From contig WFMF01000121.1 of assembly GCA_011033025.1 (NCBI GenBank), positions 186,001 to 250,000 on the forward strand: a stretch of DNA of 64,000 nucleotides, written 5' to 3'. The DNA is from Beroe forskalii (lineage: Eukaryota > Ctenophora > Nuda > Beroida > Beroidae). The position numbers were made by a program, and so were the translations under genes. Shown here piece by piece: positions 20,924 through 56,635 of this stretch (positions are counted from its first letter, which is position 1; each line of letters begins with the position of its first letter). A model generated the notes under the pieces. That model was given only the letters and a program-made list of their open reading frames with translations. It was not told the DNA's origin and ran no database searches.

Positions 20924-21145
20924 GTGTCCCGTATAACTCTGAGCTCTTCATTATCTATGATAATGACGTCACTCAGAAAATTACATTTAAGCGCACCTAG
21001 CGCTTTAAGGGTTAGAGTTAGGGCCAGGATTTGTTAGGGTTAGGGTAAGGATTATGGTTAGGGTTTTGGTTAGGGTCATGGTTAGGTTTAGGATGTAGAA
21101 AAAATTGACGTTTGGCGTCACTCAGCGGCCGGCGTTATGGGACAC
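20924..21145. mobile_element. MITE with telomere-like interior, copy B
   Basis: Ends GTGTCCCGTATAAC and GTTATGGGACAC. Same internal order as copy A: TTCATTATCTATGATAATG, TGACGTCACTCAG, GCGCACCTAGCGCTT, TTAGGG-variant run, then inverted sub-terminal motifs. Only the outermost bases differ from copy A, so the two are subfamilies. Confidence 0.7.
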
Positions 21146-22100: not shown

Positions 22101-22539
22101 CTTACTTGGCACAGTCAGGGTTACCGAATACCGAAATATGCAACTTTGGCATTCTTACATCTTTTATCTCACAGTTTTGAGAAAATGTCCCTTCAGTCCT
22201 CCAGGCGTGTATTTACCGTACACAAATAAATCCCTCCGGCTTGAACTTCGTAGATTTTCCTGAGTAGAGAAAAGAGAAAAAGGGACTGCACTATCTACGA
22301 GAAAATTAGTGTTTCCGAGGAAGTGTTTGTTCACTAGGTGAACATCCGTTGAACATCTGTCCAGTAGTTGAACATCCGCCTGCCATCTAACATCGCATAT
22401 GATTCGGTAACCCTGGGAACAGCACGCAAGGAACCAGCACGTGCTGAGAATGTTGCAGAGCGCACGTGTCACGCCGCGCGCGCGTGACCCTGTCACGTGT
22501 CACGCCACACACACACGTGACCCGTAACGCGTGATGTTG

Positions 22540-24554: not shown

Positions 24555-27500
24555 CTGTGGAGATAAGGGTTGTTAAGTTGCCATAAGGGTTGTTAAGTGG
24601 AGATTAGGGTTGTTAACGTTGCCATAGTTACATAGTTATGCAGGTGTCGCTACCTCGAGAAATGAGAATCATTCTGAAATTTCCGATCGCGCGGCGAAAT
24701 GTACGTTCGTTGATACACTGTTAAATCAGTATCACTCACGTACAAACGGCGGGTTTGTGGAAATTGCAGAGCTAGGTGGCGATACCTCAGTTACCATAGT
24801 TACAGGTTTCATATGCACATTGCACAGCCTTGTCTTGGAAACAGATTGTCTTTAGGTTGCTATGGTAACCAGGAATCAGTAACCATAACATTAAACTCCC
24901 AGACTCTGGTCTGAGTCTCAGTGCGGTTACAGACTTGGAAGTAGAGTCTATAGTAGAAACAAAGCGGGTCAATATATTTGCCTAGAAACATACCGGAATA
25001 TTGGGTTGTCATGGCAGTCCACCCGTTCAGACAGGATTTAGAGTAGGTATTTATATATTCATCATATAGTAAACTCCGTACACGAGAAATAGGCGGGTAG
25101 GATGACGTCATTATCATATCATAATGTAGTGAGTTGATGACGTTGAACCGCCTATTTCTCTTACGCGGCGTTTAGTACTATATAGTTACTATAGCAACTA
25201 TACTAGTTGTTACAAGGCAATATATACGAATAATATGAAATGATGAGCCCCGATGTTGTCATGATCTGCAAAAACGTAAAACTATAATACAGTACAGACT
25301 CAGGTTACAGAGGAGAAGGATATATTACTTGGGATCTTCTAAAAGTTACTCGGATAAATCGTATGGTAAATAATCTCTCTAAATCTGTGGTTCGCTAAAG
25401 ACGGGAATTAAAATTACTAGAGCGCCAATAAACTCTGACTAAATGATGATAATGATAAATCAGCAAAAAATCTTAGGGACTTTCCTGGTTTTAAAATTTA
25501 AATTGTTCAATTTTAACGAAAATGATAAGCTTATTTACAGTTATTAATGGTAGCATAAATTCACATTTGTCGAAATACAGACTGTACAGTTGAGCAGTGA
25601 ACTTGAAATGTCATTGACAATGATGAATGATTTTGTCATAACAACGCGTGAGGTTACAACAGCAACGCGTGAGGTTACAATAGCAACGCGTGAAGTTACA
25701 ATAGCAACGCGTGAAGTTACAATAGCAACGCGTGAGTTAACCAATGTAACGCGTGATAATACCACACTAGTTCACAATTTCAAGTAATTGGGAGATGAGT
25801 GAGCGTGTGAGAATGATGATTCTTGTTCAGCCACGGGTTTTTCTGGTGACAGTCCTTTCTTAGTGTTATTACTGAAAATGAAATGAATGAGATGCTGTGA
25901 GGAATGGAAATAATTATTCAATCAAGTTGCTGGTGTTTATAATGTTTGGGTGAGAATAGAGTTAAATTTATATTTCAAGTCATGAGTCAAACTTTGGCTA
26001 TCAGTTTCTCGTGTCAGTTCTAATGACCTGATTTTGCAGCTTAAAACTTGAAGAGGCATTAAATGATTTTGCGGGCTGAACTGGAACTAACCTGATTTTG
26101 CGGGCTGAGGTAGAACTAACCTGATTTTGGGGCTGAACTGGAACTAACCTGATTTTGCGGGCTGAGGTGGAACTAACCTGATTTTGCGGGCTGAGGTAGA
26201 GGCAGGGTAGGTTGCAGAGAGGTTGGAGGGGGCTCGAGATACGGGCTGAGATCGGAACCTGCAACGAGTTCAATCCGGTAAATTGCTACTGATAAACACA
26301 GAATTCCAAAGCAACAAAGAAACTTCCCACATCCTTTTAAGAATGCGAGATTACTTGCACAGACTCAGCAACGCATGATATATCGATAGAAACACGTGAA
26401 ATCACCATGCAAATAACTTCAATATCTCCCTAATGTCGGCGGCAAATGAAAATACACTTGACTGGAAAAATTCGGATCTTCCATGGCCAAAATAAAAAGA
26501 ATTGATCCAGGGTGGTCCAGCATATCATTTTATGATAAGTTCGACCGTTCTCAGTCGGCCCAAATGATAAATATTCTAATATTTATTATTTTGTGGATAG
26601 AAGACACTCGAATTTTCAGTCAAGTGTATTTTCATCTGCCGTCAACATTAGTCTCTCCCCACCTGCCGCTAGTCCTATCTGAAGCTGCTGGCAGGGTGCC
26701 CACTCCCTTAGTGGTGATCTTATCACACATGTTCCTGATGTTCCGAGCTGAGGCAGCTGACAGGTGACGGTGACACAGACTGTCGAAGTTAGGACTATCC
26801 AGACACCAGGACAGGATCAGACGACCGTAGTACCTGGGAAGGGGTGGGTTAGAGAACATAGGGGTGGGTTAAGAGTGGAAATAGGAGTGGGTTGGAGGGG
26901 TGGAGGTGATGGGGTGGGTGGGGTTGGGTTAGAGGGGAGTGGGGGGTACAGGTGACACAGACTGTCGAAGTTAGGACTATCCAGACACCAGGACAGGATT
27001 AAACGACCGTAGTATCTGGGAGGGGAGGGGTGGGTTAGAGAACATAGGGGTGGGTTAAGAGTGGAAATAGGAGTGGGTAGGAGTGGTATGTGATGTGATG
27101 GGGTTGGGTTAGAGGGGAGTGGGGGGTACAGGTGACACAGACTGTCGAAGTTAGGACTATCCAGACACCAGGATAGGATTAAACGACCGTAGTACCTGAG
27201 GAGGGGTGAGTTAACATAGGGGTGGGTTAAGAGTGGAGATAGGAGTGGGTTGGAGGGGTGGAGGTGATGGGGTGGGTGGGGTTGGGTTAGAGGGGAGTGG
27301 GGGTACAGGTGACACAAACTGTCGAAGTTAGGACTATCCAGACACCAGGACAGGATTAAACGACCGTAGTACCTGGGAGGGGAGGGGGTGGGTTAGAGAA
27401 CATAGGGGTGGGTTAAGAGTGGAAATAGGAGTGGGTTGGAGGGGTGGATGTGATGGGGTGGGTGGGGTTTGGTTATAGGGGAGAGGGGGTACAGGTGACA

Positions 27501-30500
27501 CAGACTGTCGAAGTTAGGACTATCCAGACACCAGGATAGGATTAAACGACCGTAGTACCTGGGAGGGGAGGGGGTGGGTTAGAGAACATTGGGGTGGATT
27601 AAGAGTGGAAATAGGAGTGGGTTGGAGGGGTGGAGGTGATGGGGTGGGTGGGGTTGGGTTAGAGGGGAGTGGGGGTACAGGTGACACAAACTGTCGAAGT
27701 TAGGACTATCCAGACACCAGGACAGGATTAAACGACCGTAGTACCTGGGAGGGGGTGGGTTAGAGAACATAGGGGTGGGTTAAGAGTGGAAATAGGAGTG
27801 GGTTGGAGGGGTGGAGGTGATGGGGTGGGTTGAGTTAGAGGGGAGTGGGGGTACAGGTGACACAGACTGTCGAAGTTAGCACTATCCAAACACCAGGACA
27901 GGATTAAACGACCGTTGTACCTAGGAGGTGGGTTAGAGAACATAGGGGTGGGTTAAGAGTGGAAATAGGAGTGGGGTGGAGGGGTAGAGGTGATGGGGTG
28001 ATAGGTGATAGGTTAAGTAGGTTTCAATTTTGGAGAGATGAAATTTCAGGGGAGTTAATCGGAATAAGAGAGAGTCGGAATTAGAGGAGTTGAAAGGTCA
28101 AACGCATTAGGTATTTGGGTATAAAGGCAAGAACTGCGAAAAAGCTCCTTAGAGTAAAAGCAAAACACAAGGAAATATTTTACCTGGTTTCCTGATTTCC
28201 GTCGTGACTAAGTTTATCCAGGGCAGCTAGGAACTTGGGAACTATCTCCTTGGTGTTGAGACACTTATTAACCCCCATCCTGCCCACCACGTCTTTGAAA
28301 CAGAGGGCACTGACTGCACGAACTGTGGCGTTCTTGTGGTACCTACAGGGGGGGAATTGTGGGTAGATGTAGAGTGGCGGAATTTCCATAATTCAGAGAA
28401 GACATTTTTGCTTAAGAAAAGTCGTAGTCTAGGTCCAGATTTGACATATCACATTCCGAATTTGACACAATAATGATTTGGCATATCCTTTTCAGAATTT
28501 GGAACCAATCTGGGTTGTGTTGAGAAACACACTTTGTATAAAAATCGCCTTAAATCTCTCCAATACATATTTCATGAATTTTCTTACGTTCCGGAGTTGA
28601 GTAGAGCGGATAGCACTCGGACGGGGGTGCCGTGTTCCACGATTTTACTGAGGGTCACCACTATGTCATTCCTGATGAATTGGTTGTGTTCCCCGGCCTT
28701 GGCAAGCAGACACTCACACGTCCTGTCCAGATCTGAGGGAAAAGTAGGATAAAAAGCTCAAGTTCGCCTTTGGCATTGAGTCAAAATTTCGAATATGAAA
28801 TATTTCGCCTTTAATGCAATCTCAGAGCAATTAGCCATCGAGTGCATTAACTACACATTCCACTTTGACACAATTTCCCTCTGACACCACTTCACCCTGA
28901 CACCACTCCACTCTGACACCACTTCACTCTGACACCACCTCCCTCTGAGACCACTCCACTCTGACACCACTTCACTCTGACACCACCTCCCTCTGAGACC
29001 ACTTCACTCTGACACCACTCCACTTTGACACCACTTCACTCTGACACCACTCCACTTTGACACCACTTCATCTTGACACCACCTCTCTGACACCACTCTA
29101 CTCTGACACCACTCCACTCTGACACCACTTCCCCCTGACACCACTCCACCCTGACACCACTTCACTTTGACACCACTCCTCTCTGACACCCTTCTCACCT
29201 GAGTCCATTCCCCCCTTGAAGATGTTGAAGTAGTCCCCGATGATCTGTATCGCTAGGCGTGACACCTGAGACCTGAGGTAGGAAACGACCGGTTAACCGA
29301 ACCGAAACCGAAATACCGGTTAACAGGGCGTTTTCAGCCAACCGAAACCGAAACCGTAACCAAATATTTTGATTTCGCAATTAACCGTTTAGGGAGATCG
29401 CTCGGTTAACCGAACCCTCGCCGAAATACCGGTTAACCGGGCGTTTTCAGCCAACCGAAACCGAAACCGTAACCAAATATTTTGATTTCGCAATTAACCG
29501 TTTAGGGAGATCGGTCGGTTAACCGAACCGAAATCGAAATACCGGTTAACCGGCGTTTTTAGCCAACCGAAACCGAAACCGTAACCAAATATTTTGATTT
29601 CGCAATTAACCGTTTAGGGAGATCGGTCGGTTAACCGAACCGAAATCGAAATACCGGTTAACCGGCGTTTTTAGCGAACCGAAACCGAAACCGTAACCGG
29701 ATTTATTGAGAAATAATAACCGGTCGTTTGGTAACCTGAGGTTTGACACCTCCGCACAGGTGAGTCTAACGTATGTCACCAGGTCGTTCTGGAAGGTGTC
29801 AGGGTGGTGCTTGGCGAGACGACGGAGAAGATGCAACCCGTGCACCTGCGGGAGAGAGGGGGAAGTTAGTTAGCAAATTGTTAAATTATTTAGTTTAATT
29901 ATTTTGTTTAATTATTTAGTTAGCAGATTGTTTGATTATTATCCTATAGAGGAGACTTAAATTAGTGAATTTAGTTAGCAAATTGTTATATTATCATCCA
30001 ATAGAGGAGACTTAAATTAGTGAATTTAGTTAGCAAATTGTAAAATAATTATCCTATAGAGGAGACTTAAATTAGTGATGCTCATACTTTTATTTGTAGA
30101 ATAGTGAACAATGATTGGATGGAAGGAGGATTGAGTGGGGAGGGAAGGAAGGTGCTAGGGCTTGGTAGGGTATTAAGGAGAAATGGAGGGGTACTAAGCG
30201 ATAATAAGAGAAACTGATGATGAGAATCAGAGAATTAGCACTGCCTGTGAGTTGCGGCTAGCAAAATTCCTATCTAAATGAGTAAATGCTAGACCACATT
30301 CCTATCTAAATGAGTAATTGCTAGACCACATTCCTATCTAAATGTTAAACTACCTTCCAATCTAAATGTTAAACTGCCTTCTAATCTAAAAGTTAAATTC
30401 CGATCTATACGTCAGACTACCTTCTACTCTTATAATTCTACCTTATAATTCCACTCCTCGCCTCCTATCTTGAGATCTTTGACAGCCTCGTTAGCGGCAG

Positions 30501-33500
30501 CATCAGGGTTAACCAGAGGAACCTCTTCTTTGTCATCTATCAGCGAAGAGTTCTGCACTTCAGGGTCAGTGTTGTCATGGGGACGCAGGGAACTCCTGTG
30601 AAGTGACAACGTGGTGTCAGGGTGACAACAGGAACGTGGTGTCAGGGTGACAACAGGGACAGAGGGACAACGTGTTGTCAGGGAGAAAAATGTTGGGATA
30701 GGAACATAATATTTGCTTGAAATTCACTGTTATGGGAGGATACATCTTTTTGCTTTAAGCACTGAACTTCATGATTACACGGCACTTACGTCATGAGTGA
30801 CGAAATTCGAAAAACTGTTACATCATGAACTCAATTCATGAACTAAAGTCATTGAGGGAGGAGCAAAAATCAATGGATTTTATGTGAGACTTAGTTTTTT
30901 CATAAGAAACTGCTATCATTCAGATCTTAATGTTATCTACTGCTCATAAAAAACCTTTTAACCATTCCAAAATTAACTTGCGTCTTCTTAAAAACCTACA
31001 GATCCAATGCATCTCAATACTCAAGAGTTCTGACCAAATTCCACTGTTGTTACTTACAATATTGAATATTCATTTTATGCTCCGTTTATTCTGATTGATT
31101 GCAAGTGAAAAGGTCTACGGGTTATCCATTACTGAACGTAATCATCAAGCACGTAATCAACGTGCAACGTAAAAACATACTTAACTTTAGTCCATCCATT
31201 ATACTCCGGAAAAAAGCTAGATGATTTGTAGTTTTAAAATATTTGATCATTTAAAATTACGTAATACTTAAAGAGAGGTCCATGAATTGATGAATATTAA
31301 GAAGTTTGTTGCGATCCAGAAGCTTTTAAGCTTACTTAAAGTGGATAATAGACTAGACATAGGAAATTATTTTAAAAAACAATCTCAGTGAACTTTTAAA
31401 TTTGATCTTTGTCTTCATTGTTAAATTAAGAGAGTTGTCTACACTGTGACGACATGATGTATTGTTTAATGATTGGTTGATTACAGGACTGTAACCACAG
31501 TAACAAACAAGTGATTGAATAGGGGGGGGGGGGGACAAAAACCATGAACCATTTCGGAAAAGGCCGAAGATTGAACTGGACCATTTCGAAATTTCCCAAA
31601 ATTTTCCCACAAAATGATACCGGTGGGCGGTAAAATAATTATCGGTTATCACCGTGAAAATGTTGGAACAATAACGAAAACTCACGCTCTAAGAGTAGAT
31701 TTGGAGTTAGACTTCTTGACTCCCAGAGTAGGCCCTTGTCTGGATTCAACTGGGGCAGACACAGGCTTTCCTGAAAAATAACAATATGCTTATCCGAATT
31801 TCAAGAGTAATATGATTAAGAAATCCAGTCCGTAACAATTAAAATCAGGAACTGAGCAGCATACAAAACAGCATCCAATCCCTACGCTCCCTGCTTTTTG
31901 TCTGTCCTGAGGTCAGGATGACTTTAGAACTAACCGTATTCTTCCTCTGAATTATAAAATACTAATTTAGAACTAACTTATTAATTTAGAACTAATTTAG
32001 AACATCCTTTGGAAGTCCTCTCTAATCTCCTCGTTGCTTCTGGTGGAGTCCTCATCTCCTCCCCTTCATCCTCATCTCCTCCTCTGATAACAATAACTAA
32101 TTAATGATTTATAATTACAGATTTAATTATCCCCTGATAAGTGATAACATCCTCATCTCCTCCTCTGAAAACAGACACACTTTAGCATTTGGGAGGAATG
32201 TAACTGCTTCAAACAAATTTGGTAGAAAATGCACGCAAAACTGATACATATTCTGCTAATTTTATCCAATGTGTTTCCTCCTATTTGGTGAATGACTACA
32301 CCTGTTTATATAGAAAACTTTAAGAACCCCTTTTACCATGGTAACTGGTGTTGTTACCATGGTAACTGGGGTTTACGAACCTGCCTCCCCGGCGCGGGTT
32401 GAGCTCCCCTCTCCTGTGCTCCGCACCTTAGCGATACCATGGTAACTGGTGTTGTTACCATGGTAACTGGTGTTGTTACCATGGTAACTGGTGTTGTTAC
32501 CATGGTAACTGGTGTTGTTACCATGGTAACTGGTGTTGTTACCATGGTAACTGGGGTTTACAAACCTGCCTCCCCGGCGCGGGTTGAGCTCCCCTCTCCT
32601 GTGCTCCGCGCTCTGTCTCTCCACGTACTGCGCGCGCTTCTTCTCAAAGCGCATGCGGGTAGCCGCGCTCAGCCCGGAGCCCGCAGGGTGCCCGTCCCGC
32701 GGGTTTCCCCTGTCCTCGTCCTTGTCAGAGGAGTCGTCCTCCGAGTTGTCAGAGAGACTACCTGGAGAGAGGTTAATATGGCGTTAAGGGTAAATGGAGA
32801 GGGCTTAATATGGGGTTAGGGGATTAAGGGTAATTCTAAAGTGAGGGAGGGGCAAGAGTTGTCAGAGACTTCCTGATGATAAGTTCATTGCGTAAAGAAT
32901 AATATTATACCAAGTTTCAAATTATATATAAACAGTTAAACACCTCGCTTTGCCTCATTTTTCACCCACCATACTCCAACCTCAATTCTCTCAACTCACA
33001 AATTATGACTAATAATGATAAATTTTAATATTAAGATTTAAATTCCTAATGGATCCTCTAAATTATTCAGTAAAAGAGAAATTTCAGTATAAGAGGTGTT
33101 CTCGCGTACAATTGTTTTAATACCGAGGTAACTGGTGCTGTTAACATTGCAACTGGTGTTGTTACCATGGTAACTGGTGCTGTTACCATGGTAACCAGTG
33201 TTACTCATACCGTCATCAGGCGAGTAGGTAGGGTGGACACGTTGTCCGTAGACTCCACTAGGGGCCCTCAGAGGTTCCTTTTCATCATGGAGATGTCTCT
33301 TGTCAGGAACAGACTCCTGGGATTATTACGTTTATTACGTATTTATTACGTATTTATTACGTATTTATTACGTATTTCAATATTTTCAGGATATAAGAGA
33401 ACTTGAAGTGACGGGGGAAATGCTGTTATCAAGATGATATCATCACGCTGACAAAATATAATGAAACTTCATGTTTTTATCACTCAATCTGTCCCACCGC

Positions 33501-36500
33501 CAACCCAAGGGTGGATCCAGGGTGAGACAATTTGGGGGTTGCAACCCCTCCAAAACCCCATTGTAGATTCACCCCTGCACCAATCTTCTGATGGTTTCTC
33601 TATCTCGATGTGGTAATACAGCCCTTTCCCCACGATGTCAATTTCAACATTGGTTACCATGGTAACAATACCAGTTACCATGGTAACTGGTAAATTGGTA
33701 CCATGGTAACCATCAAACTACCAACCTTCTGATGGTTCTCTATCTCGATGTGATTTGAAGACAACCCTTTCCCCACGATGTCAATTCCCACATTGGTGTC
33801 GTTTGGAGATGGTATCACCCCGCGGCTTAGCTTTGATCAGCTTAGGTCGGGGCTTCTTTGCATCCTCAGCGGCTTGCTTCAGCTTCTTCTTGGCGACGTT
33901 CTGAGGATTCTGAGTTGAGTTTAGGGACGCAAATCTCTGAATGATTGATAGACAGCCCAAATAATTGTGGTTTCTTGCCAACTTGAGTCAGAATTCAAAA
34001 ACTGAAAAACGCTAAAAGATAGCTCACCATTTCAACGTATCCGTTCCCTATATGATACGCGTCCACTTTCATCTCGTCTTTGTCAAACTCTGCAGGGTCC
34101 CTCGGCTGTTGGCTCCCGTCCCTCCTCGCGTCCTTTTGTAGCCGTGTCCTTCTTCTGTCCTCTTTGGCGAGTTCTTCTAGTCGGACCTTGTCTAGTTTAG
34201 CCTGGAGCATTGCAAGGTTTAGCGTGAGATTTCGAAATACAGTCTCAGATACCTCTAGGATGGGGAAAATTTTTAAATTTATCGGTCATAATTTTTGTAG
34301 TAACCAAGAAGCCTGAAGCAGAAATTTGTCTTGGGCATATAAAATTTTTACAAAGATTTACAAAATAAAAGGTTTAAAATTACTTATTATAGATTAACTG
34401 ACATATGTTTCATTTTCGACCCTCACCCACCTGTTCTAGTCGCTGGGATCCCCGGACTGGTTCCTCCGGTGGGGAGGCACCCCTGGAACCCGGGGCTCTG
34501 CTGCAAGCCTGCTCCTTCGCTGGGGTGCAGCTCTGGTTCCGAGATCTGGGGAAAAAGAGAAACTTGACATCAGTTCACCTTGACACTAGTTCACCTTAGA
34601 ATCACTTTGCATTGAGACCACTTTACATTGACACCACTTTACCAAAACAGTAGACAACACTAAATTCTGATACTACTTCGCATTGACATTTGACATCAAT
34701 CCACCTTGACACCACTCCACCTTGAGACCACTCCACCTTGAGACCACTTTATCTTGACACCACTTCACTAACCTGTTTGTGTGTTTGCAAGTCTGTTCGT
34801 CAGCAGTGGCAGCTGCCGTGGTGTGGTGAAGAGAATTGGGTCGAGTGTCGTCTGCTGTGAAGGGGCTGGATCGCTGGAAAAGAGAAACTGTTGAAAAATA
34901 CGCCCACCAAGAATCTTTAATATCAATGAATCAGTTAAATTAAATTGAATGGACTGAGGAAATGAATGATTGAGAGAACTGGTGTGATTTTGTGAATTTT
35001 GAATGGTAATTTATGAGAATAATATCACCTCTGACTGCTTTATCTCCGGCAGTTTCCCTCCAAACATTCCCTTATCCTTTACACGGTAAGTCTTCCCACC
35101 ATTCCGTATCTTCTTCTTAACTCCCTCCAAATCTTTGGGATTGCACTCCCTTATTCCCTCACGGCACTCCCTAATTTCCTCATTGCACTCCCTAATCCCC
35201 GCATTCTGTTCCCCCGAACTCTCCCCTAAACCCCTCCCATCCTCCTTCCTCTCTTTACCCCTTTCTGTTCCCCAATCTTCCTTCCTCTCTTTACCCCCAT
35301 CTGGTCCCTTCACCCCTCCAGCTCTCTGAATTGCAGGGAGTTTCACCCCATCACCTATCCTCTGCGGAACATTGCTCGGTCTTTGGAAACTCTTCTTAGC
35401 TCTCAGAGCAGCAGTTGCTTTCTGAGCTTCAGAGATCGGCACCGGACACTTCTCAACAGATTGGATGGGTTTTGTAGAATGGTTGGCAGGGGTTAATTGG
35501 CTGGTATTTGTAGAATGGTTGGCAGGAAGGTCAGGAGACTGAACAGGACTTGGGGGAGGCTTGGAAGGATGCCTGGTAATTCTCTTTCTGCCGTTCTTGA
35601 AGGATCTAGTTGTGGTACTGGTAGAATGGGGGATAATACCCTCAGCATGATCACTCTCCGGACAGAGATTTTGAGTGCTCTTTTTCAACTGTTTCCGGCT
35701 TTTACTGCTTGACAAAGTGATAGTTTTAGCTCTACCAAATGCTAAGTCCCAGTCTACAGGCACATCGCAAGACTTCTTGAGGATGGAGCGAGGGGTGACG
35801 GGCGTGGCTTTTGATTGGTTGGTTCGGTCACGTGACTTCCTTGTCAGGCGGTGAGTGGGGAATGTGGTGTGGGTGCGCTGGAGTTGGGACTGTGAGAAAT
35901 GAGGGAGTTTAGGGAGTTGCAAAATAGAAATCAGTAAATCTTTAGTTAGAATTTTCTTAAATCAATAACTTACAGTTCCACAAATGTTTTTTTTTTGACA
36001 AAAATAAAGATTGGCGGCAAGTCAGTTCAACGAATGAAGGTATTTAAATAGCTAATTTGACCTACTTTTGAGGTGGTAAAGTTGACTATGTTGACTTCGT
36101 TTTGAGGCTGTGTATTTGACTAAGTTGACTAACTGACTAACTTTTGAGGTGGTGAAGGAGCTCTCCTCGAATATCCCGCTATCATGGAGAGTGGAGGGCG
36201 GAGAGAACTGAGAGTTCTGCGGAGGTTGGGTTGCTTGCGGAGTGGCGCGCGGCGGCAGCGCGGAACCGTTGGGAGTGTTGCTGGTGAGCGTGCCTACGCC
36301 GCTACTCTCACCTGTCAGGGGAGGGGGTGGATTATACGCCGCGCACGAGAAATAGGCGGGTAGGATGACGTCATTATCATACAATGATGTGGTGAGTTGA
36401 TGACACTGAACCGCCTATTTCTCGTGCGTGGCATTTAGTCAAGCTTTGGAGTAGTCATCTTCTGAACTCTCAGAGTAAGCTGTCTTCAAGAATTCAGAGC

Positions 36501-42500: not shown

Positions 42501-45500
42501 AATATCACACAATCCAGTTAAAGTACACTGGTAAATCATCAGAAGTTACAAATTTATTGAAATATTTGATGGTTATTAAATATTAGGGTATATTATTTGG
42601 ACAGTATATATGTATTATGTAATGCACTACCCAATGACAGGATAATAAGTCTGACGATTTGATTTGTAAGTTTCGAATCTGCAAAAAATTGAAAAATTTT
42701 AGAACAAATCTTCAAAAACAATGATTTAAGTCCGGACAGACGATTGTAATTAGTGTAATAGGGACTAACTCTAATATTGTGTTACTTGAATTAGATAACT
42801 GGTACAGTGACTGATTGGATGGCCTTAAAGTCGATGAACTGGAAATAAAGTAGGATCCATTAATCAGTGTAATGTAATCACGGAACAAACATAGACTGGA
42901 GTAATCTGGACAGTAAGTGAACTTTACTAATTGGGAGAAGTTACGATAGAGATCTTAACTTTAATTTACTAGAAAATAGAATTTGCACAAAGATGATCTG
43001 AGTTAAGGATTTCTGATTAAATCCGATGTTGGGAGTCGTTTTATAGCAGTAATGATTGGAGATTTTAAACCATGTTTAAATTAATGATAACTAAGCATGT
43101 TCTTTTTTTTCAAGGAAAAGTAGAAACAAGAAATCAAATACGAAAGCGCAATTACCTGTATTTTAATTAAGACAATCGATGGCTTGAACTTCGCTAATTC
43201 TAAGTTGTACTAATTCAAAGCAAATTTAACAAGCATCGGGACATATTAAACGTGGAGAAATAAGAAAACAATAAATTACAAAACCGCGTGGTTTGAAATT
43301 GAAAATTTGAATAATGTGTTTAATTGAATGGGAGCCAAACGTTCACTGAACATTTGGCTCCCATTCAATTGTTCAGGAACATTGTTCAGGAACATGGTAT
43401 AAGGTATGAAATGATGATTAATGATGATTATAGCCTCTGCGACAAAATAAAAGAAGCTGATTTTAATAAATACCTAATTCTGATTTCAATAAACTGACAT
43501 CGGTATCAGTATGCAACTAATGAACAGTCATCCGATCATTCAGTTAAGCATGAAATGGAAATCTTAAGAAAGCGTCCTAACCACAGAAATAAAATACCAG
43601 ATCTGATCACGGTGATAATCTGGTGCTGTTACCATGGTAACAGCACTGTAATTTGCAGACAATTCTAGATTACAGACACTAGTGTATGGAGAAGAGGAGT
43701 GATGTAATAAACAAAAGTCGAAACTGCATATATTGATTAGAATTCTACATTTCATTGAAGCAATTTAAAAGCACTTAAGTACTTAGGTGATTGCGAAGAT
43801 ATCGTCTAATCAAGTAGACCATCTGAATCTTTTAAATATGCATATCGAAAATACTGAGCAATACCCTGAGTTTCGTCTCCAAATTGATCAAAATAAGTCA
43901 TTTTGGGAATTACCAACTTGGAGCTTATCTGAAAATTGCCTCTTTTGATATTATCTAGAATAAAGAACTGCCGTTGAGTCATTCGAATCAAGCCGGTCTG
44001 CCGTCTGGTAGCAAAATGATAAGAATTCCAGATGAAGGATCGAGAAAATGATATGTCAAGAACAAACATTTCAATGAAATAAAATTACCAAAATAATGAT
44101 TAATTCGGTCTAAAAAATTTAAGAAAATGTTAATTATATTTTGATGATAATGATTTCTAATGATCGACGAATGACAATAATCTGACTTCACGACGCACGT
44201 GCAGCCTGAAATCTATTTCCGGCTCAAAAAACAAAAACACTCCCAAAACACACTCCTAACTCTCAAATCTAACTCTCCGTTATCTTCGTGACACACAAGC
44301 TATTCTCTAATTGGTTAGCGCAGGAAAACTGTGGCCGTTGATTGGTTACTCCACCGGAAAAGTCGAGTTCGCTGATTGGTCAGCGTCATGTAATGCTGCT
44401 CGCTGATTGGTCAGCGCCATGGAATGCTGCTCGCTGATTGGCTAACGTAGTTCAGCAATTGGTTACGCCAGCAAGGTACAGTGGTATGAAGAGGGGATGA
44501 AGTCAGGGCAATCAGAACAAGCAAACTGGTATCAGGCAGCACAAACCGTACATTTAACCGATATATTTATATTTATATATAGTCCACCCTATGTGCTGGT
44601 ACATATTAAACCGAAAAAACACACATTATCATCACTTCTCATAAACTTCATAGCTCGCAGAGGTATATAGAAGACATTAACCAATCAGAGCGCGAGTTTA
44701 CCCTGAACTCGGATGCTGATTGGTCAGTGTCGGAGAGGTATAGGAGAGGGATGCCGGGGATGGTTTATTTATTTGACCGGCAATATTCAAGAAAACAACC
44801 AGTTTTCTGGTATAATAGTGTGACGTCATCATGTAGATTTGAGTTAGCAACCGATAGCGTCAATATTTGTATAAATCCAGCTATATTGGAAGGAATATGT
44901 AGAGTAAGTTATTATCGTAAATTTCTATTTATTTATGTTTCTCCGTAGATGCAAAAAGATGAAAACAGAAAAAGTTTGCTTGCATCAAATTCAAATAACA
45001 ATGCCTATCATATTTGACGTCAAGGAACATCGATGTATGTTATTAAAAGTTTAAAAAGGGTAATTTCGTTCCGTATTTTTGAAATATCGCCGGGAAGAGC
45101 CATCCCCAAGCAATAACCGGGCATTTTCCAGCTGACATTTCAACTTTTCATCACTGGATTCCCTGGCTCGAATCCACTGGATTCGAGCCAAGGAGCGTTT
45201 TTATTTAGACATAATTGCAGTGATACGACTATATGATGACCATACTATCAAAACAAGTCTTAACTTTGTAAGACCAAAACATAGAGATATTGATAAGGTA
45301 CAAGATAAAGACGCAGAAATGGCTATTTATGATGTCTTATCCAAATGCTAAAATAAAGTGATTGAGCGACGAGAAAAATCACAACAAATGATAACCCAGC
45401 GACTTGAAATACTAAAACGATTTAGCAAAAATGTGGAGTGACCACACATGAAAGTAGAAAAAACATATCATGCAGCTACAATTATGAACAAGAAATCGAT

Positions 45501-48500
45501 GACGACATCAGTATAACGTCATTCTTACACGGACACCACCTCTAAAATCTGATAAGAAAGAAGAAACAAAATGAGAATTCCACCTGAGATCATTCCATAT
45601 ACGGAAATACATTATTAGATATTTAAATAGGATATTTATGCTCTTTGAAGTTTGATGTACCTATATATCAAGTATACCGGCAACAATAAACAGAATGTCT
45701 TGAAAAAGACATTTTAAAGACAGCCACTATGTACGGCTTATAGGCGTTATATATACGGCATAGGTATATAGGAGGATATTGACCAATCAGCGCGCGAGTT
45801 TACCATGAACTCGCACGCTGATTGGTCAATGTACGGCATGTTTTAGCTCCGTTTAAATCGCGCAAGACAGGGCCATTAAAAAGGTGCCGGTATGCACTCT
45901 GAGAAGTCCTTAAGATGATGAGAATGACAAGCAGAGCAGGATAGCTCCAATTTGCTCAAATCTCAGGGAGCACAAAGTCTGAAGTGGATTTGGAGGTATG
46001 CAAGTACATCAAATGTATGAATGTATATCGAATGTATGAAATGTATATCTCCATGTGGGAAATGTATTTCATGTATCTTTCCTTTGAAAGGTGGGATGTA
46101 TAATGGGCTTTTTGACAGAATCAACAAAAACAACACTTATTTAACACTGTCAACTTAATTCTGTCAAGAGAGATGTGGCAGATGTGGAGATCTGGCAGTA
46201 CAATAAGCTTAGACCTTTGGATCGATGCCAACAGATATAAAACCATGGAATTCTTGAAGATCATCCAAGGGTGGGTTTCCTTTTGGCTCATGCTTTGCTG
46301 ACGCAAGTAGACGATATAGTCTACCAGGGTCGCCAATTAAATGGCTACCATCACAAATGTTAATGAATATTTCTGTGGCAAATGTTATGATCAGTGATCA
46401 CGACTAAAAATAAACTTTATTTGTTGCTTTAATGAAGACTATCAGAGACATATGTAATGATGCCCATTAAAATCTGCTGTGGGGGAATGGCCGGATATCC
46501 CAAACAGGGAGAATGGATGGATGCTTTGTAGATCTATCTCCTCATTTCAGTAGTAGTGAGGCAGTAATTTGCCGTCTCTGAGTGATAAAAAATATCCTAG
46601 AGCGCTCAGCGCAAGATTAAGCGATGATAATTTGGATATACTCAAATGATATTCCTTACCTTGGCATAAGTTGTTGCAATGTGGTTGCAATTCACACTGA
46701 CCTGAAAAGGAAGGAATTGTTTATTTGAATACGGTTAAAGAAATAACATTTTGAACGAGCGAATGAAATCATCATTAAGGAAATAATGATGTAAAACCCT
46801 GTAACAGTACAAACAGAAACTGACAGACAGAAATTGAAACATACAGACAGAAATCGAAACAGACATGGGAACAGACGGACATAGAAGCAGATAAACAGAG
46901 ACATAAAAGCAGACAGAGAAACAGAAACAGAAAACGGACAGACAGGACCCACCGTGCAGACCCAACACGAGCAATGAGGGGATGAGGTTGTCATAACAAC
47001 GCCATGGAAAAACTACGAAAGTGAAGGGTCAGGTTTTCCGGTCGCAACTTTTGTCAAAAACCGTGGGAAAATGCACTGATTACGCCGCACGCGCGGACAA
47101 AAATCAAATTTACATGCTTACATGCGCGCGTTCCGTTGTTAACATCTACTCTTATTTAATTAATTAATTAGTTAATTACGATGACGCCATTATTCCACAT
47201 GGGACCAAAGTATCGAGGACTGAGTGGTTTAAAAGGGACTTGATGCAACTCACTCACAAAAATATAAAATACGAAAAGTAGAGACATTTTGCCGGAAAAT
47301 CAACATCTGAATCAAAGAATTACTGAATTAGGACTTTTAGAGAAAACAAAAAAAGACAACAAGAGGAAACACGGCAGTTGAGATATGTGGGCTGTTTATT
47401 CTTTCATCTGCTCAACTGAAGCTCGGATATCAGTTGTCACGTAATGCAGGCAGGTAATGCAAGCAGAATCATGGTTGCCATGGTAGCAAATGGGAAGGCA
47501 GTTGAATTCCCCATCTAGGAAGGCTGAACTTACGAGCCAAACAGAGAAAATAGGCGGCTGAGAATCACGCAATTATCACAGATAAGAACGATGCAAAGAT
47601 AACGCCATATCTCCTGTATTTTCAAAGAGTTTTGTTGAAACAGGTGGGGTGATGTAAGATTTAGGGGGTAATGCAGATTAATGGATGAGATGCAGTGGAG
47701 AAGTACTAATTGCATGGGTAGAATAGGAAGAGTAAGGGAATGATAATATAGTGGGATTAAATTTAAATACAAATACTGGTAGATCAAACAGGGCAGAGAT
47801 TCTTTAAAATACCGATAATAGAAAGGGTGAAGGGTGGTGCTTTGATTGAAATGAATGTGAGAATGAACTAATGAATGTGAGAAGGAATCTGGCTGCTATA
47901 ACCAATTGAAATTCATGAGACGATTTCAGCAACACTATCTTTTAATTCTTGAAACTTTTGTTGATAAAACGAAAATACAAATATGCAAAATTCAAATCCG
48001 TAGTATGATTTTCTCTTGGAAAAACGGACCAAACACGCAAAAGCATAAGAACCCCACATAAAAGCATAAATATGAGCACATCCGTACTCGCGTAAATGTT
48101 AAGATAATCAACTAAAAAACGAGAGAAAGTGTTTTTGCAATTACAGCCCAGGGGGTATCGCTCAGAAATTCATTCGACCAATCAGGAGAGAGTTATTCGT
48201 CACGTGATCAGCCATTTGACCAATCAGAGAAGAGTATGGGGGGCTGGAAAAGCTAAGCTGTCATTTCAAATATCATCATTACGGTGCGTCCGCAATGTGC
48301 GGTGAAAACTAGCGGATTTAAAAGACTCACGTGACTTTGAAAGTGTCACGTGACTTTGAAAAGTCATAATGATGTCACGTGACATGGATGGCACCACGTG
48401 ACTTCAATGTAACGCGGATCAGGGTACCGGGTACAGGCCACATGGCTACCACGTGGAATACAGAAAACTGTAAGCAGGGAACCAATCAAAATGCTTATCA

Positions 48501-51500
48501 CGGTCATGTGATATCAAGCGAAGCCTAAAATCACGCAAGAGAAATTGCACACGGTGACTCATTCAAAGTTGTTGCTGGATACATATTTCGTTTTGATCGC
48601 AAAAATTAGCTCAGTTTCTTCTTAGAATTTGCCACTTCATAACGCTGGCACCATTCGAACAACTCTTGACTCGGGCATTGCTCCATCTTACTATCTTAAA
48701 CTTAACGAGCCCTGGTTAGCTAGTTATAACTGGAAACATTATCATCTGCGTTTCACTATTGTCCTGATACTACCTTACCGGACTTAACTACCTGTACTAT
48801 TTGCCGCGCACGAGAAATAGGCGGTTGAAAGTCATCAACTCACTACACTGAGTTATGATAATGACGTCATCCTACCTGCCTATTTCTCGTGTGCGGGGTT
48901 TAGTCACATATTACGTCAAAGAAAACAGGAAATGCAGCACGAAAACAAAGCTACAATAAAGTAAACCAGTTATAGAAGAATGAAATTTAGTCCTCAATAT
49001 TGCGTTCTCCGCAGAACAATTGAGGACTAAAGTTATATATCGAATGTGTAGAAAAGGATTGGACCCCAAGCGGTTTATAAAAACTAATGATAATCGAGAG
49101 AAATATATAATACTTGGAAATGTTCGCGTATTAGGAAAAGTTTTGAGTCTAGAGGAGAACACACTTAAGCATAATTAGGCATACTTAAGCATACTCACGG
49201 ATCTTACATTACAGACCAGATGGCAGAGAAATTACACTATTATAGTCTATACCTTAGGAGGTTTATTTATGGAGGTTGTAATTTTGGGATTTTAAGAAAA
49301 ATCCCCATTTTTCACACACCATGAGAGTTCAAAATGATGTCATTATGATATTTTTACTAGAGCAATGACTAGAGAAAGATCCCTAAATTGCACCCTAAAG
49401 CCCTAACAAATTTGTAAATACCAAAATTTTACTCCACATAAATATACCTCCTAAGGAATACTGTTATAGTCTATCTGATCTAGGTAGGGAGTGTGGACGA
49501 ATTTATGTATTGGTTCCTCGTAATATAAAACTATAACAAGCAAAGAGTGCATGAGTCGGGGGCCAAAGGGATTTACTTCTAAGGCTGTCCAAACCAGACG
49601 TCCAGACGAGGGCGAATGAATTGAACTTCATGATTTTTGATAACTTAAGCATACTGCACCGCAACTTGTATTTTCTTTCGATGAACGGATTATGAATATT
49701 GATAATCTAGCCTGTAAGCCTGCGTAAACATTCATCCATTGATTCATGATTGACAATCCAAACACATTGAAATTGCAATGTTTATCGCAAATGCGCTGCG
49801 CGCGTTGAAAAATTTGACACTAACTGCTGTCGTTATGACTCTCATCCCTTGATTTCACTTCAGCGCGCGCGGTAAAATACAACTTTAGTATGCTACCGCG
49901 CGTAAACCTTCTACGTTGGGGTTTACCTGACCTTAGACCTACTTAGCTGTTTGAGAAAAGAGGTCTGGTAACTCTTGAGTGTGTACAGTAATTATTTCAC
50001 TGTTTCAAAAGGCCATAGGTACTTTGATAATCTGCGTTGTATCAGGAACACACTTTGTACAAATAAGGAATACTGAAACAGCGACAGAAACAAACCTTAT
50101 AATAATTGCTGACTTACGGACGGACAGAAAAACAAAATCATTAAAACAACCAGAAGCAAACAAACCCCACAAACCTGAGTATTATCGGACAGAAAAACAA
50201 AAAAATTAAACAACCAGACACAAACGAAACCCCACAAACCTGAGTATTATCGAGGATGGTATTCTGTCTGCTCGGTCTCTCCCACGGCAGCCTATTCCTA
50301 CCCGCACTGAAGTACCTCCTAGGTACTGACATGGGGGTAGGAGGCGGGAGATTACCTTCTGCTGCCCTCTCCTGAGCCGTGGTGGGAACGGAAATACTCC
50401 TGAAATACCTTCCCAGTTATGTCAGAGTTTAGATGGTAGGGAATGCATGGGATATCGACTCAGCTTTATGAGCAACAATTTGAACAATAAAAGGTTATTG
50501 ACTTAACCAAGCTTTGTTATTGAACTTTGCTTTTCACTGCTCAAGGGCTGTTTTTATCAATCAATTTGATTAACAAGCTAAGAAAGAAAACTTAAATCGG
50601 GTTTTAACATACTGCTGAGTATGAATTTACCCTATTCTGTGGACACCAGTAAGAGTGGTTGAGTTCCGAGTAAAGCACCCTTCTCCGTGTGTAATCAGCC
50701 CATCCGCTACTCCCACATTACCTGGGTGTCAGTGTGGTGTCAATATGGTGCCAGTGTGGTGTCAATGTGGTGTCAATAATATGGTGTCAATGTGGTGTCA
50801 ATATGGTGCCAATGTGGTGTCAATGTGGCGTCAGAGGCTGTGACAGCAGACGGGGTAAGTGGTGTTTAAGTGGTTTCAGGGTGAAGTGGTGTCAAGGTAA
50901 TGTGGTGTCAGAGTGATGCAGTGTCAGACTAAAGTGTTATCAGGCTAAAGTGGTATCAGAGCAAAGTGGTGTAAGAGCAAAGTGTTGTAAGAATGAAGTG
51001 GTGTCAGAATGAAGTGGTGCCAGAGTGAAGTGGTGTCAAAGCAAAGTGGTGTCAGTATAAAGTGGTGTCACACAACATTACCTCTTTGCAGCCTCTCCTT
51101 GATAGCAGCTAAGAACCTCTTATTCTCGCTGTCCACCTTCTCCACAGCCTGGTAGACGATGTGACTTTCTCGAGGTGACAAACATCGTGTCAGAGTGGAG
51201 TGGTGTCATGGTGAAATGTGGTGTCAGTGTCAAGTGGTGTCAGAATGAAGTGGTGTCAGAATGAAGTGGTGTCAGTACGAAGCAGTGTCACACAACATTA
51301 CCTCTTTGCAGCCTCTCCTTGATAGCAGCTAAGAACCTCTTATTCTCGCTGTCCACCTTCTCCACCGCCTGGTAGACAATGTGACTCTCTCGAGGAGACA
51401 GACATTGTGTCAGAGTGGAGTGGTGTCATGGTGAAATGGTGTTAGTGTCAAGTGTTGTCAGAGTGGAGTGGTGTCAGAATGATGTGGTGTCAGAGCAAAG

Positions 51501-54500
51501 TGGTGTCAGTACGAAGCAGTGTCACACTAAACAATATAACCTCTTTGCAGCCTCTCCTTGATAGAAGCTAAGAACCTCTTATTCTCGCTGTCCACCTTCT
51601 CCACCGCCTGGTAGACAATGTGACTTTCCCGGGGAGACAGACATTGTGTCAGAGTGGAGTGGTGTCATGGTGAAATGGTGTCAGTGTCAAGTGTTGTCAG
51701 AGTGGAGTGGTGTCAGAGTGAAGTGGTGTCACACTAAACCTCTTTGTAGCCTCTCCTTGATAGCAGCTAAGAACCTCTTATTCTCGCTGTCCACCTTCTC
51801 CACAGCCTGGTAGACGATGTGACTCTCTCGAGGAGACAGACATTGTGTCAGAGTGGAGTGGTGTCATGGTGAAATGGTGTCAATGTCAAGTGTTGTCAGA
51901 GTGGAGTGGTGTCAGTACGAAGCAGTGTCACACTAAACCTCTTTGCAGCCTCTCCTTGATAGCAGCTAAGAACCTCTTATTCTCACTGTCCACCTTCTCC
52001 ACCGCCTGGTAGACAATGTGGCTCTCCCGGGGAGACAAACATTGTGTCAGAGTGGAGTGGTGTCATGGTGAAATGGTGTCAGTGTCAAGTGTTGTCAGAG
52101 TGGAGTGGTGTCAGAATGAAGTGGTGTCACACTAAACCTCTTTGTAGCCTCTCCTTGATAGCAGCTAAGAACCTCTTATTCTCGCTGTCCACCTTCTCCA
52201 CAGCCTGGTAGACAATGTGACTTTCCCGGGGAGACAGACATTGTGTCAGAGTGGAGTGGTGTCATGGTGAAATGGTGTCAGTGTCAAGTGTTGTCAGAGT
52301 GGAGTGGTGTCAGAGTGAAGTGGTGTCACACTATATTACCTCTTTGCAGCCTCTCCTTGATAGCAGCTAAGAACCTCTTATTCTCGCTGTCCACCTTCTC
52401 CACCGCCTGGTAGACAATGTGACTTTCCCGGGGAGACAGACACTGACTTAGCACTGTTAGTCCTTCTAACGCAGTGTTAGCGACCTGTTAGAGAGTTGTA
52501 GAAGATTAAAATAGTCAGGGAGTTATAGAAGGTTATTAGATAGTCAGTGACGTAAAATAACCTTGATAAGTAGTTAATGCTCGGTTTGCTGATCATGCGT
52601 AAATTCTTAAAATGCACCAATTTGTAAGATCCCCCCCCCTACTCACCATTTCCTTCACCCAACTTTCCCCACAAACCTTCACCCTCCCTTCCTTCCTTGA
52701 AACTTCCTCCTCCGCCCACTCACCCGCTGCCTATGGTCGTTGAGTCCCACAGCGAAGTAGTCAGCTATGACAGCCACATTGAGGTCCTGTACCCCATCAC
52801 CCACTCACCCCACTCCCTCCCCCACTCAACCCCTCCTTTCCTCACCCCTCCCCCGCTCACCAACTCCCTCTCCCTCCTTCCCCCCTCTACTCACCCTTTG
52901 CCTATGGTCGTTGAGTCCCACAGCGAAGTAATCAGCTATGACTGCCACATTGAGGTCCTGTACCGGGAAGGTGAGCAGGGTTTTAATAACCACATTCATT
53001 GCCTCCTCTCTGATACGGGGGTTCCTGTCTCGGAAACTGAGGGGTTGGTGAGGAGTTAATAAAACTAAATTCGCTTGAAAATCTAAGTTCGGTAAATCGA
53101 GGGAGTGGTTTGAATGCTGTAAGGAGTTAAAACTTTAACTAATTCTGTGCTAATTCTGATTAAGAATTTTGTTGAAAGTTGTCCTTATAAGTTGGGAAAA
53201 TCAAAATTATTTACCTACTGAGATCGTCGAAAAATTTTCATTGAAATTAAAAACTTTCAGAATTAATTTCACCGAAAAATTCGACGAAAAACACCTGTTG
53301 GGTAGGTTCGTGTAAAATTAATCCAAGGCTTTAAATAATTGAGGATGCTAAACATTCTAACATTGGCTAGTTTCCAGATATGGATAAGCCCAGATTTGGC
53401 TACCTTATAGTCCAGTTCATTAGCTGAAACTCCATTTAACAATTATAAATAATCATTAATTTTCTTTCATCCATTTAAAGAATATTCGTAAAATATTGAA
53501 ACTATGAACTTTATATTATCTTACTTGACTAGGACCACATCAATAACAGGTCGAGGACCACAGACTTTCATGAGTTGAATGAGGCACTTCATCGTTCCTT
53601 CTCTGACTGCAATCTTGTTGTCACCTGACAACAAGGAGTGTTGTAATGTTTGTTGCCATGACAGCGGGTTGTCAACATGACGTGTTACTGTGCCAAATTG
53701 ACTATTTTATCAAGGAATATAAGAATACGAGAAAACCTGTTGGGTTTCCTCATTTATTGGACGTAGAGTCAGTTGGACGTACTATAAATTGAACGAAGTT
53801 ATTGATGCAATTTTTCGTTACTGGGGGTAGGGGTGCAACGTAACGAAATTAAAAAAATATTTACAAATGAAACTCAGGTTAGAACAGTAAAAACTAAACC
53901 CCTACCTATCTTGTGACACAACGCCTTGGTCAGTGGAAAAACACAGTCCCCGATAACTTCTCTGAAAACCTCCACAAACGTTGATACCAGGACCTACGGA
54001 AAAGGTTTAATTTGCTTAGCTGTATCAGCTTTGAACCCACGGAAAAAGTTAATTTAACTCAGCTTGAAAACAACACACTACAGTCTACACAGATATGGTT
54101 TGTCTATAAAATTGGTTGTCAGACAAAAATAACATTTTTGTCCTGGACACTTTGTTATTTGAGAATACAGAGTAAGTTTCACCCTGAAGACTCTTACCGT
54201 GCTGGCTTTGAAGACCCTGAAGTTGTTGATGGGAATGACTTTGATGATCGCCTCGCAGATCTCCTCAATACAGATCAGGAAGTCAGCTGGGTTACTCACT
54301 CTCCTAATAGCGCTCTGCCGAGAGGAAGGAAGTTTACAATTTGACACAAATCTCAGAGCAGATCATTAACTAAACATATTGATAAAAAGCTCTTGTTTTT
54401 ACAGAAACAACAAAACCTAAAAACCTCTGGACGATAATCACAAGATTTTCGAAAGCTTCTGAAAATTAAAAACACCTATCTATAAAAAATCAAAACACAC

Positions 54501-56588
54501 TATATCGAGTATAACCAAACTATACAAACCTCCAGCTCGGCAATAGCTTTGATTTGTTCCACGATGTCCTCCCCATGCAATCGAGTGAGTGTCGCATCAG
54601 GGATCAGGTCCCATAACAGCTTACCCTCCAGCGAGATAGCGCTATCAGCCTGCGCAGATACGGGGGTAGAAGGGCAGTCAGTGGGGCAGTCAGGGATCGG
54701 AGAAATGTCAGCTATGTCAGCAGGAATTTCAGGGATTTCAGCGGGGATTTGAGCAGGAATTTGAGCAGGAATTTGAGCAGGAATTTCCTGAAATGAATCA
54801 GCCTGCGCCGAGTCGGTGAGACAGTCAGGTGAAATGTCACTTTACACGAAAATATCAATTTCAATCTTTCCGATAAGCGTTTAGGTAATAGTTTTTAAAT
54901 TTCTAAGCAGTTGTTAATTATTAAAATTCGTTCCGAATCACACCAATTCGACGTGAGATAACCTCAAGTTTGTTGATGTTGACATGACTCAGCCCGGAGG
55001 ACTTGTAGAACACAGCTTTGGGCTTCTCCGTGCTTTTAAACGTCGACATCAGCTCTTTTCCGGAGCTCAGTGCGGAGGTGGGGAGCTGTGTGATAACTTC
55101 CTGTAATATCCGCCAATCAGAGTGCAGGAAATATTAGAATGATAGCCAATCAGAATGGCAGAAAATTAGAATGCTAGCCAATCACAGGACAGAAAATTAG
55201 AATGCTAGCCAATCAGAGTGCAGGAAATTAGAATTATAGCCAATCAGAGCGGCCAATCAGCGGAAGAAGAGTTGTATTCAAAGAATTTTCTTGAAAATTA
55301 AATGTTTAAATATTAAATATGATGTTTTCCGATGAATTCCTGTAAAAACCTCCATTTTGTTGGGTGAAATGACAGCAGTGATGGAACTGAAACTGTCTTT
55401 GATGGCTTTCTTCACTTTCTTATTGTCCTCGAGGTAATGTCTTTTGCAGAGGGCCGTAACGATGTTGTAACAGTCTTCTGTCCTGCGTGGGGGGTAACGT
55501 GACGTCACGGTAGATGCCATAGTAACGCGTTATTTCACAGATAAGAGTCATAGTAACGCGTTATATCACTGATAACAACGCATTTAAACCCGTTGTAATA
55601 GCAACCATGTCTAGATTATTCTACTCACTGTAGTATGTTGAGAATGAGTTTGTCCACAGTCAGTATTACTTCCCGTGCTATGGCCGGGTCCTTGTTATCA
55701 ATCCCCTCCCAAATGATTGAACGAGCCAGGGAGTTCTTATCGCTTGTGATCTGGGAGTAGAAATATTAGTTACAGTTAGGTTTCGACTATCACGATTCAT
55801 TTGCTTAGAAATTATTCTGTTACATCGCAAAAACTTCAAAACAAATTCCTACCATTTTTCAAATTCCTTAATAAATTTTGCGATTAGCGATTGCTCACCT
55901 CAGAAAAGCATCGTATAAGTTTTATGCTCTCTCGTTTGAGCACGAGGTTGTTAGCGGCCATGTTTCCGAGGAGGTTGAGTACGAGGTGTCCATGTCAGCT
56001 CCCAACTTTCCGAGGAGAGTTTGGCATTTCGTTCGACAAATCCTCATCTTGAAGGATTCTCTGAGGGGAGGGGGAGTGAGGAGGGGCTGAGGAGTGAGTG
56101 GGAGTGGGGAGTGAGGAGGGGTGAGAGTGAGTGGGAGTTCGAGGGAATAGGGAGCATGAGATCCTCATCTTGGAGGATTCTCTGAGGGAGGAGAGTGGGT
56201 GAGAAGGGGGTGAGGAGGGGAGTGAGGAGGAAGGGGTGGGAGTGGGGAGGGGTGGGGGAGTGGGGGTGAGAGGGAGTTAGAGAGAATAGGGAGTATGAGG
56301 TTCTCATCTTGGAGGATTCTCTGAGGGGGGAGTGAGTGGGAGTTAGAGGGAATAGGGAGCATGATACCCTCATCTGGGACGATTCTCTGAGAGAAGAGTG
56401 GGGGAATAAGGGGGAGTTAGTGGGAGTGAGTGGGGTGAGGGATTGAGGGGTAAAAGGTAGGGAAAGTGAGCGGTAAGAGGGGGAATAAAGGCGTTGAGGA
56501 GGAGGGGTTATTCGATACGAACTACAAGACAGACAAACAGACAGACAGACAGCTAGACAGACAGACAGACAGACAGACATACAGACAT

Positions 56589-56635
<47 letters not shown>

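Follow-up and report, generated by a model that had tools for sequence, protein, structure and literature searches.

Exon-edge copies in the introns of a TOGARAM1-like gene as tandem repeats crossing exon-intron boundaries

Why do the edges of many exons of a single gene, splice sites included, recur in the adjoining introns? This question is raised by a TOG-array gene, TOGARAM1/crescerin-like, in a 64,000-nucleotide stretch of genomic DNA (G000:C161:186001-250000, hereafter the window) that belongs to an assembly of 216 Mb in 1,134 contigs. With a probability of about 0.85, these copies are ordinary minisatellites that were born by tandem duplication, grew and were filtered by selection on the exons. 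Under this scenario, tandem duplication would affect arbitrary segments of ~30-200 bp, about a fifth of the sampled sequence being such repeats, and the arrays would then grow by slippage or unequal exchange. Some of the duplicated segments would cross an exon-intron boundary by chance, in which case one complete copy would stay joined to the exon body, and the spare copies of the edge, along with the splice site, would land in the adjoining intron; duplications inside exons, or those that destroy an exon, would be removed by selection.

Copies of exon edges and their orientation

Comparison of the window with itself using BLAST (basic local alignment search tool; self-BLAST) and analysis with Tandem Repeats Finder (TRF) revealed many tandem arrays. 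When the 34 modelled exons of the TOGARAM1-like gene were compared with the window using BLAST (E, the expectation value, up to 0.01), 23 copies outside exons were detected, originating from 8 exons. All 23 are in the sense orientation, within the adjoining intron and on the predicted side; this search produced no copies outside the adjoining intron and none in antisense, a result that agrees with tandem duplication and led us to reject a dispersed copying of the exon edges. Four 5' edges and five 3' edges are affected in this gene, and the copies at these nine confirmed edges are 78-99% identical (Table 1). The central observation of an earlier note on this sequence, namely, that duplications cross exon-intron boundaries at both the 5' and the 3' edges of many exons in one gene, is therefore upheld, and so is the strict polarity it described, with copies of 5' edges located upstream (exons at 26663, 36624, 37982 and 55899) and copies of 3' edges downstream (exons at 26178, 32566, 52340 and 52895). 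Of the 11 edges named there as copied with the splice site into the adjoining intron, nine stand. At the claimed 3' edge at 33726, the duplication is real but the reading frame stops before the edge and the modelled exon ends at 33819, leaving this edge unsupported; the case near 32150, put forward with some reserve, remains tentative, given that a short copy with AG in front of it is present but no exon is modelled there and the reading frames are short.

The polarity had been regarded as a clue to the mechanism; it is, however, forced by geometry. By simple reasoning, if a segment made of intron end (i) and exon edge (e) is duplicated in tandem, the order becomes intron-(i e)(i e)-exon body, or the mirror image of this; the exon body remains attached to the final copy alone, and every spare copy comes to lie on the intron side.

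The same anatomy is found in other genes. An ALDH-family gene (Pfam match Aldedh; presumably ALDH16A1-like) contains, upstream of an exon, an array of a 69-bp unit with 47 aligned copies, each of which includes the 3' splice site and ~55 bp of the 5' edge of the exon. A gene with a Pfam C2 match, which we take to be TOLLIP-like, carries a 33-bp unit at a 3' edge, and in a coiled-coil-like gene without a Pfam match, the array includes the first coding exon and its donor. Among the kinesin loci, the arrays of L037 (56-bp unit, ~28 copies) and L042 (58-bp unit, 27 copies aligned) include the acceptor and the 5' edge, and those of L046 (28- and 36-bp units) include the donor and the 3' edge. The polarity rule of the TOGARAM1-like gene is followed in the ALDH, TOLLIP-like, coiled-coil-like and kinesin arrays alike. 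Separately, two kinesin exons in G000:C291:171201-174881 apparently occur in several tandem copies, a whole-exon duplication on a larger scale.

Table 1. The TOGARAM1-like gene and the repeats at its exon edges (positions in the window)
Feature	Position	Strand	Description
TOG-array (TOGARAM1/crescerin-like) gene	22540..56763	-	34 modelled exons; 5' end may reach further
29-bp array	26064..26200	-	3' edge of exon 26178-26258 and donor, downstream; 2 copies, with 23 and 16 bp of exon
186-bp array, 6.8 copies	26769..28000	-	acceptor and 5' edge of exon 26663-26833, upstream; 64-65 bp of the edge in 6 copies found by exon BLAST
16-bp minisatellite	28856..29211	-	enters 3' edge of exon 29199-29272 by ~12 bp; marginal
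26-bp direct copy with acceptor-like AG	32067..32173	-	tentative case near 32150, no exon modelled; 32148-32173 versus 32067-32092, 96% identical, AG in front; additional 17-bp match
3'-edge duplication	32333..32609	-	exon 32566-32761: 44 bp and donor, 1 downstream copy; the two copies are separated by a 21-bp palindromic array
Duplication	33579..33797	-	claimed 3' edge of exon at 33726; copies 33579-33654 and 33720-33797 (self-BLAST)
5'-edge duplication	36670..36907	-	exon 36624-36729: acceptor and 60 bp, 1 upstream copy
115-bp array, 5.3 copies	38052..38666	-	acceptor and 34 bp of 5' edge of exon 37982-38085, upstream; 5 copies found by exon BLAST
65-bp unit, 2 copies	50121..50252	-	donor and ~13 bp of 3' edge of exon 50240-50318; exon part below the reach of exon BLAST, seen in the TRF unit
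199-bp array	50857..52445	-	3' edge of exon 52340-52484 (103-106 bp per copy), donor and 16-bp minisatellite; six downstream copies
3'-edge duplication	52703..52964	-	exon 52895-53036: ~66-70 bp with donor, 1 downstream copy; the 66-bp copy of the exon ends four bases short of the exon end
5'-edge copy in CT-rich array	56040..56430	-	acceptor and at least 21 bp of exon 55899-56060, upstream; 1 copy by exon BLAST

The joined exon pieces of the gene produced Pfam matches to CLASP_N and CEP104-like_TOG, which would fit TOGARAM1, as the gene is called in the earlier note, or another gene of the TOG-array type. AG and GT flank the modelled exon edges, the sole exception being 55987, inside exon 55899-56060. 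In this exon, TOG-like coding sequence comes in two pieces with an in-frame stop between them, which may stem from an indel in the assembly, from an additional intron or from an allele that is broken; it was entered as a single exon despite the broken frame. The 34 exons were checked by hand, the borders being otherwise ab initio, and weak ab initio calls were excluded from the set (34431-34545, 37351-37409, 46660-46701, 22164-22443, those upstream of 56763 and others within arrays). Array copies were initially taken for exons by the gene finder, which biased its own splice matrices, and it was retrained after the duplicates had been removed; spare copies can thus be called as extra exons by gene finders, and annotation of genomes of this kind calls for caution. 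Coding exon 54530-54802 holds an internal 12-bp repeat (IPAQ) whose length is divisible by three, which would agree with selection acting on exon-internal repeats.

Exon edges against the background of local repeats

Exon-derived copies as such exceed chance; their concentration at exon edges does not. Across all gene sets, with the self-BLAST and TRF maps combined, 21 of the 221 exon boundaries lie in local repeats, compared with 35.7±5.7 expected from rotation of the repeat map (probability of at most the observed count, 0.007). Exon edges are mildly depleted in local repeats, not enriched, within this sample, which comprises one assembly and a moderate number of arrays, and the supposition that they are duplicated more often than other sequence fails there, an outcome that the earlier note had itself named as one that would refute it. 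Local repeats cover 20.2% of the positions outside exons and 2.4% of exon interiors, with the boundaries in between, as expected from purifying selection acting on a random process. In the TOGARAM1-like gene, repeats hold 23.9% of the non-exon positions but 8.4% of those in exon interiors, and 11 of its 67 boundaries are counted with TRF included (14.4±3.6 expected), two of them marginal (29199 and 30442).

Local direct repeats, defined here as copies within 2.5 kb of each other, make up 25.6% of the window; in a 200-kb stretch of contig C247, their share is 18%. TRF was added because the self-BLAST map misses periods under ~50 bp, the 33-bp TOLLIP-like array among them, and a boundary was counted if it lay at least 12 bp inside a local repeat. 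Other genes were sampled since the TOGARAM1-like gene had been singled out by the earlier note as a striking one. The counts are 3 of 58 boundaries (9.8±3.0 expected) for the C247 genes, 7 of 84 (8.6±2.4) for the kinesin loci and 0 of 12 (3.0±2.1) for the other genes in the window; the C247 and kinesin sets, which were not chosen for exon-edge repeats, jointly yield 10 of 142 (~7%; 18.5±3.9 expected). With the self-BLAST map alone, the corresponding figures are 10 of 67 versus 11.9±3.4 for the TOGARAM1-like gene, 1 of 58 versus 8.6±2.9 for C247 and 6 of 84 versus 6.8±2.2 for kinesins.

Contig C247 was picked since it had appeared, with a high coordinate, in a genome search. Its six genes were selected by eye (Pfam matched three of them, to C2, Aldedh and RRM, two were scanned without a match and one was unscanned), excluding a single-exon sugar transporter along with retroelement-like and low-complexity predictions. 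The kinesin set consists of 20 loci selected by the score of the kinesin hidden Markov model (HMM), not by repeats, among the 120 matches reported, and its boundaries are those of gene-finder exons overlapping the kinesin HMM rows. From the other genes in the window, which we take to be PI4KB-like and SR-rich, 7 of the 12 predicted exons were used. Two placements were made by hand, namely, that of the L037 exon and that of the initial exon in the coiled-coil-like gene; the latter was put inside the array, a choice that favours the claim of the earlier note.

Although the sample is small, these counts allow the rate at which exon edges are caught by tandem arrays to be estimated, and we know of no earlier estimate. 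They also provide a null model, in which a high density of tandem repeats suffices to produce strictly polar copies of exon edges and no special mechanism is required.

Weighing the alternatives

Several points tell against chance capture of exon edges by minisatellites. Counted per array, 10 of the 19 repeat clusters in the TOGARAM1-like gene straddle a boundary, versus 7.2±2.0 expected, a weak excess (P=0.12), and this gene has a larger share of straddled boundaries (11 of 67) than the C247 and kinesin sets have (10 of 142). Very short copies, such as that near 32150, escape the repeat maps, and the exon borders are ab initio predictions made from genomic sequence. In a gapped comparison of the copies in fixed windows anchored at the exon, the exon part is the more conserved one in each of the ten arrays, and in eight of these the difference is clear; four of the ten were compared again from the intron anchor. 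Finally, the AG is intact in 111 of the 112 copies of five acceptor arrays.

The alternative that fares best, although we consider it improbable, is that splice sites or the borders of transcribed exons act as seeds for the duplications, by slippage at splice-site sequence or by break repair, as had been proposed for this gene. The nine confirmed edges in one gene would favour seeding, and the per-array excess is the strongest figure on its side. Nevertheless, none of the sets shows an excess of boundaries in repeats, neither the full sample nor the TOGARAM1-like gene nor the kinesin loci, and boundaries are caught in repeats no more often than random positions are; moreover, the length of exon copied ranges from ~13 to 106 bp. 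A splice-site-seeded mechanism is unneeded.

Slightly less probable still, in our judgment, is that the spare copies are functional, the arrays of splice sites serving as decoys or as alternative acceptors and donors that tune splicing. The nearly invariant AG speaks for such a role, and Turri 1995, by its title, reportedly describes a minisatellite in a human interferon-induced gene that provides multiple splice donor sites. In the three larger of these acceptor arrays, however, a third to half of the dinucleotide positions (20 of 60, 22 of 49 and 24 of 47) are conserved at least as well as the splice site, and in the donor arrays, GT is lost from some of the aligned copies, being kept in 4 of 10 in L046, 3 of 5 in the TOLLIP-like gene, 7 of 8 in the coiled-coil-like gene and 3 of 4 in W26178. 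The unit lengths are 28, 29, 33, 36, 56, 58, 65, 69, 115, 186 and 199 bp, 7 of the 11 not divisible by three, so that use of the spare sites would often shift the frame.

The apparent conservation of the exon part does not hold up either. The exon-anchored comparison is biased, and the exon limit used in it for the ALDH array was wrong; four arrays were compared again with both anchors, after correction of this limit. The similarity in L037 is 0.973 for the exon part and 0.971 for the intron part with either anchor, and the exon part of the ALDH array is less similar than the intron part with both (0.921 versus 0.988 and, with the other anchor, 0.906 versus 1.000). The sign flips between the anchors in L042 (0.949 for the exon and 0.883 for the intron, then 0.939 and 0.974) and in W38085, the array at exon 37982-38085 (0.967 and 0.883, then 0.973 and 0.986). 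An ungapped comparison produced near-equal mismatch rates for exon and intron in W38085, L042 and L037. Across the four arrays analysed with both anchors, there is no consistent constraint on the exon part of the copies, and nothing stands out in copy conservation that would point to function.

An assembly artefact, through false repeat expansion or unmerged haplotypes, is hardly credible. Tandem arrays are the usual site of assembly error and the frame of exon 55899-56060 is broken, but the copies at the nine edges diverge (78-99%, not 100%) and so are not identical assembly echoes, an option that we rejected. Moreover, several loci of the same build are spread over several contigs, and single-copy duplications also occur.

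Mirages and other known systems

The earlier note stated that no named system behaves in this manner, but the structure has been published under the name of mirages. The founding report is said to be that of Canestro 2002. Mirages are tandem repeats, of the minisatellite kind, that span exon-intron boundaries; they were named in the amphioxus gene Adh3 and are also described in the amphioxus globin genes BflGb6 and BflGb9, with units of 10-72 bp in Adh3 and 150-160 bp in the globins, and with both boundaries affected (PMC3087553). A second article cites PGBD5 and troponin C of lancelets as additional examples (PMC3902484). According to the first of these accounts, amphioxus mirages show length polymorphism and somatic instability and leave regular splicing unaffected, a point that also argues against functional spare copies, and an intron-gain model was proposed (PMC3087553). 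We would likewise expect splicing to be undisturbed by minisatellites of the mirage type in the present case.

As far as these descriptions go, the likeness is close: tandem repeats cross the boundary, many units contain a splice site, the 5' and 3' boundaries are both involved, and one authentic copy is attached to the exon. The unit sizes found here span 28-199 bp, that of 115 bp falling between the published mirage values and those of 186 and 199 bp slightly above them. The differences concern scale and host. In the present case, several genes in a small sample are affected, along with nine edges in one gene, with up to 47 aligned copies; the host appears not to be amphioxus, and the likeness is that of the genomic sequences. 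Thus, we regard the structure as a widespread instance of the known mirage kind, probably in another lineage, which would extend mirages from amphioxus to what is probably a ctenophore.

Evidence on the host comes in part from the mitochondrial contig C1134 (L049; 13,339 bp), which encodes a COX1 with four in-frame TGA codons, such that TGA must be read as tryptophan. When translated with genetic code 4, the protein looks divergent. This code is also used by sponges and cnidarians. The AGA codons occupy positions that we take to be conserved arginines, and AGA in this gene probably encodes arginine. A search with ARAGORN under bacterial settings, a weak one for this purpose, detected no tRNA in the first 2,844 bases of the contig. 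Ctenophore mitochondria are described as fast-evolving, without tRNA genes and thought to use code 4 (PMC6991124), and TRF is reported to mark 13% of a ctenophore genome (PMC8527503). Among the candidate hosts, a ctenophore would best suit the divergent COX1 found here. Amphioxus was rejected as an unlikely host, given the reading of AGA and a search that detected no GFP-family match, a weak negative since its control was silent as well.

No ctenophore case of mirages was found among the literature matches listed, which covered part of the literature. A bolder possibility, which we advance tentatively and consider rather doubtful, is that mirage-type arrays pervade a whole non-bilaterian genome and arose independently of those in amphioxus, forming a standing supply of spare splice sites through which introns lengthen, slide or are gained, possibly with variation between individuals and between cells. 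Such genomes would suit attempts to watch the lengthening or gain of introns.

Two further systems bear comparison. In human segmental duplications, internal tandem repeats with a variable number of units are reported at exon-intron boundaries (PMC2812944). According to that report, the human repeats are supported by RNA and are linked to the formation of new introns, whereas here, as far as can be seen, the copies land in introns that already exist. A potato case of intron gain through tandem duplication has reportedly been described as well. In Drosophila, cases of intron gain are described that follow the Rogers model, the tandem duplication of proto-splice sites (PMC2891723). The shared element, to judge from this description, is the tandem duplication of a segment containing splice-site sequence; under the Rogers model, the duplication occurs within coding sequence and creates an intron, whereas in the present case an existing boundary is crossed.

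The window contains additional repeats. Palindromic minisatellites built on TTACCATGGTAAC are found at 173-1024, 1596-1971, 13627-13778, 32333-32558, 33130-33195 and 33651-33712; they are related to each other, and two of them lie in or next to exon-edge duplications. Units of 16 bp (CACTCTGACACCACTT and variants) are similar in separate introns of the one gene (28861-29194, 34563-34771 and 50868-52328), and such units therefore seem to spread between loci in addition to their tandem multiplication. An interspersed repeat at 26508-26654, where 56 of the 60 genome matches listed fall, with 69-87% identity, has an inverted partner at 26430-26498. A 2-kb array of a 33-bp unit (60754-62876) contains several minus-strand open frames of 119-132 amino acids, and degenerate interstitial telomere-like TTAGGG tracts are located at 20592-21092.

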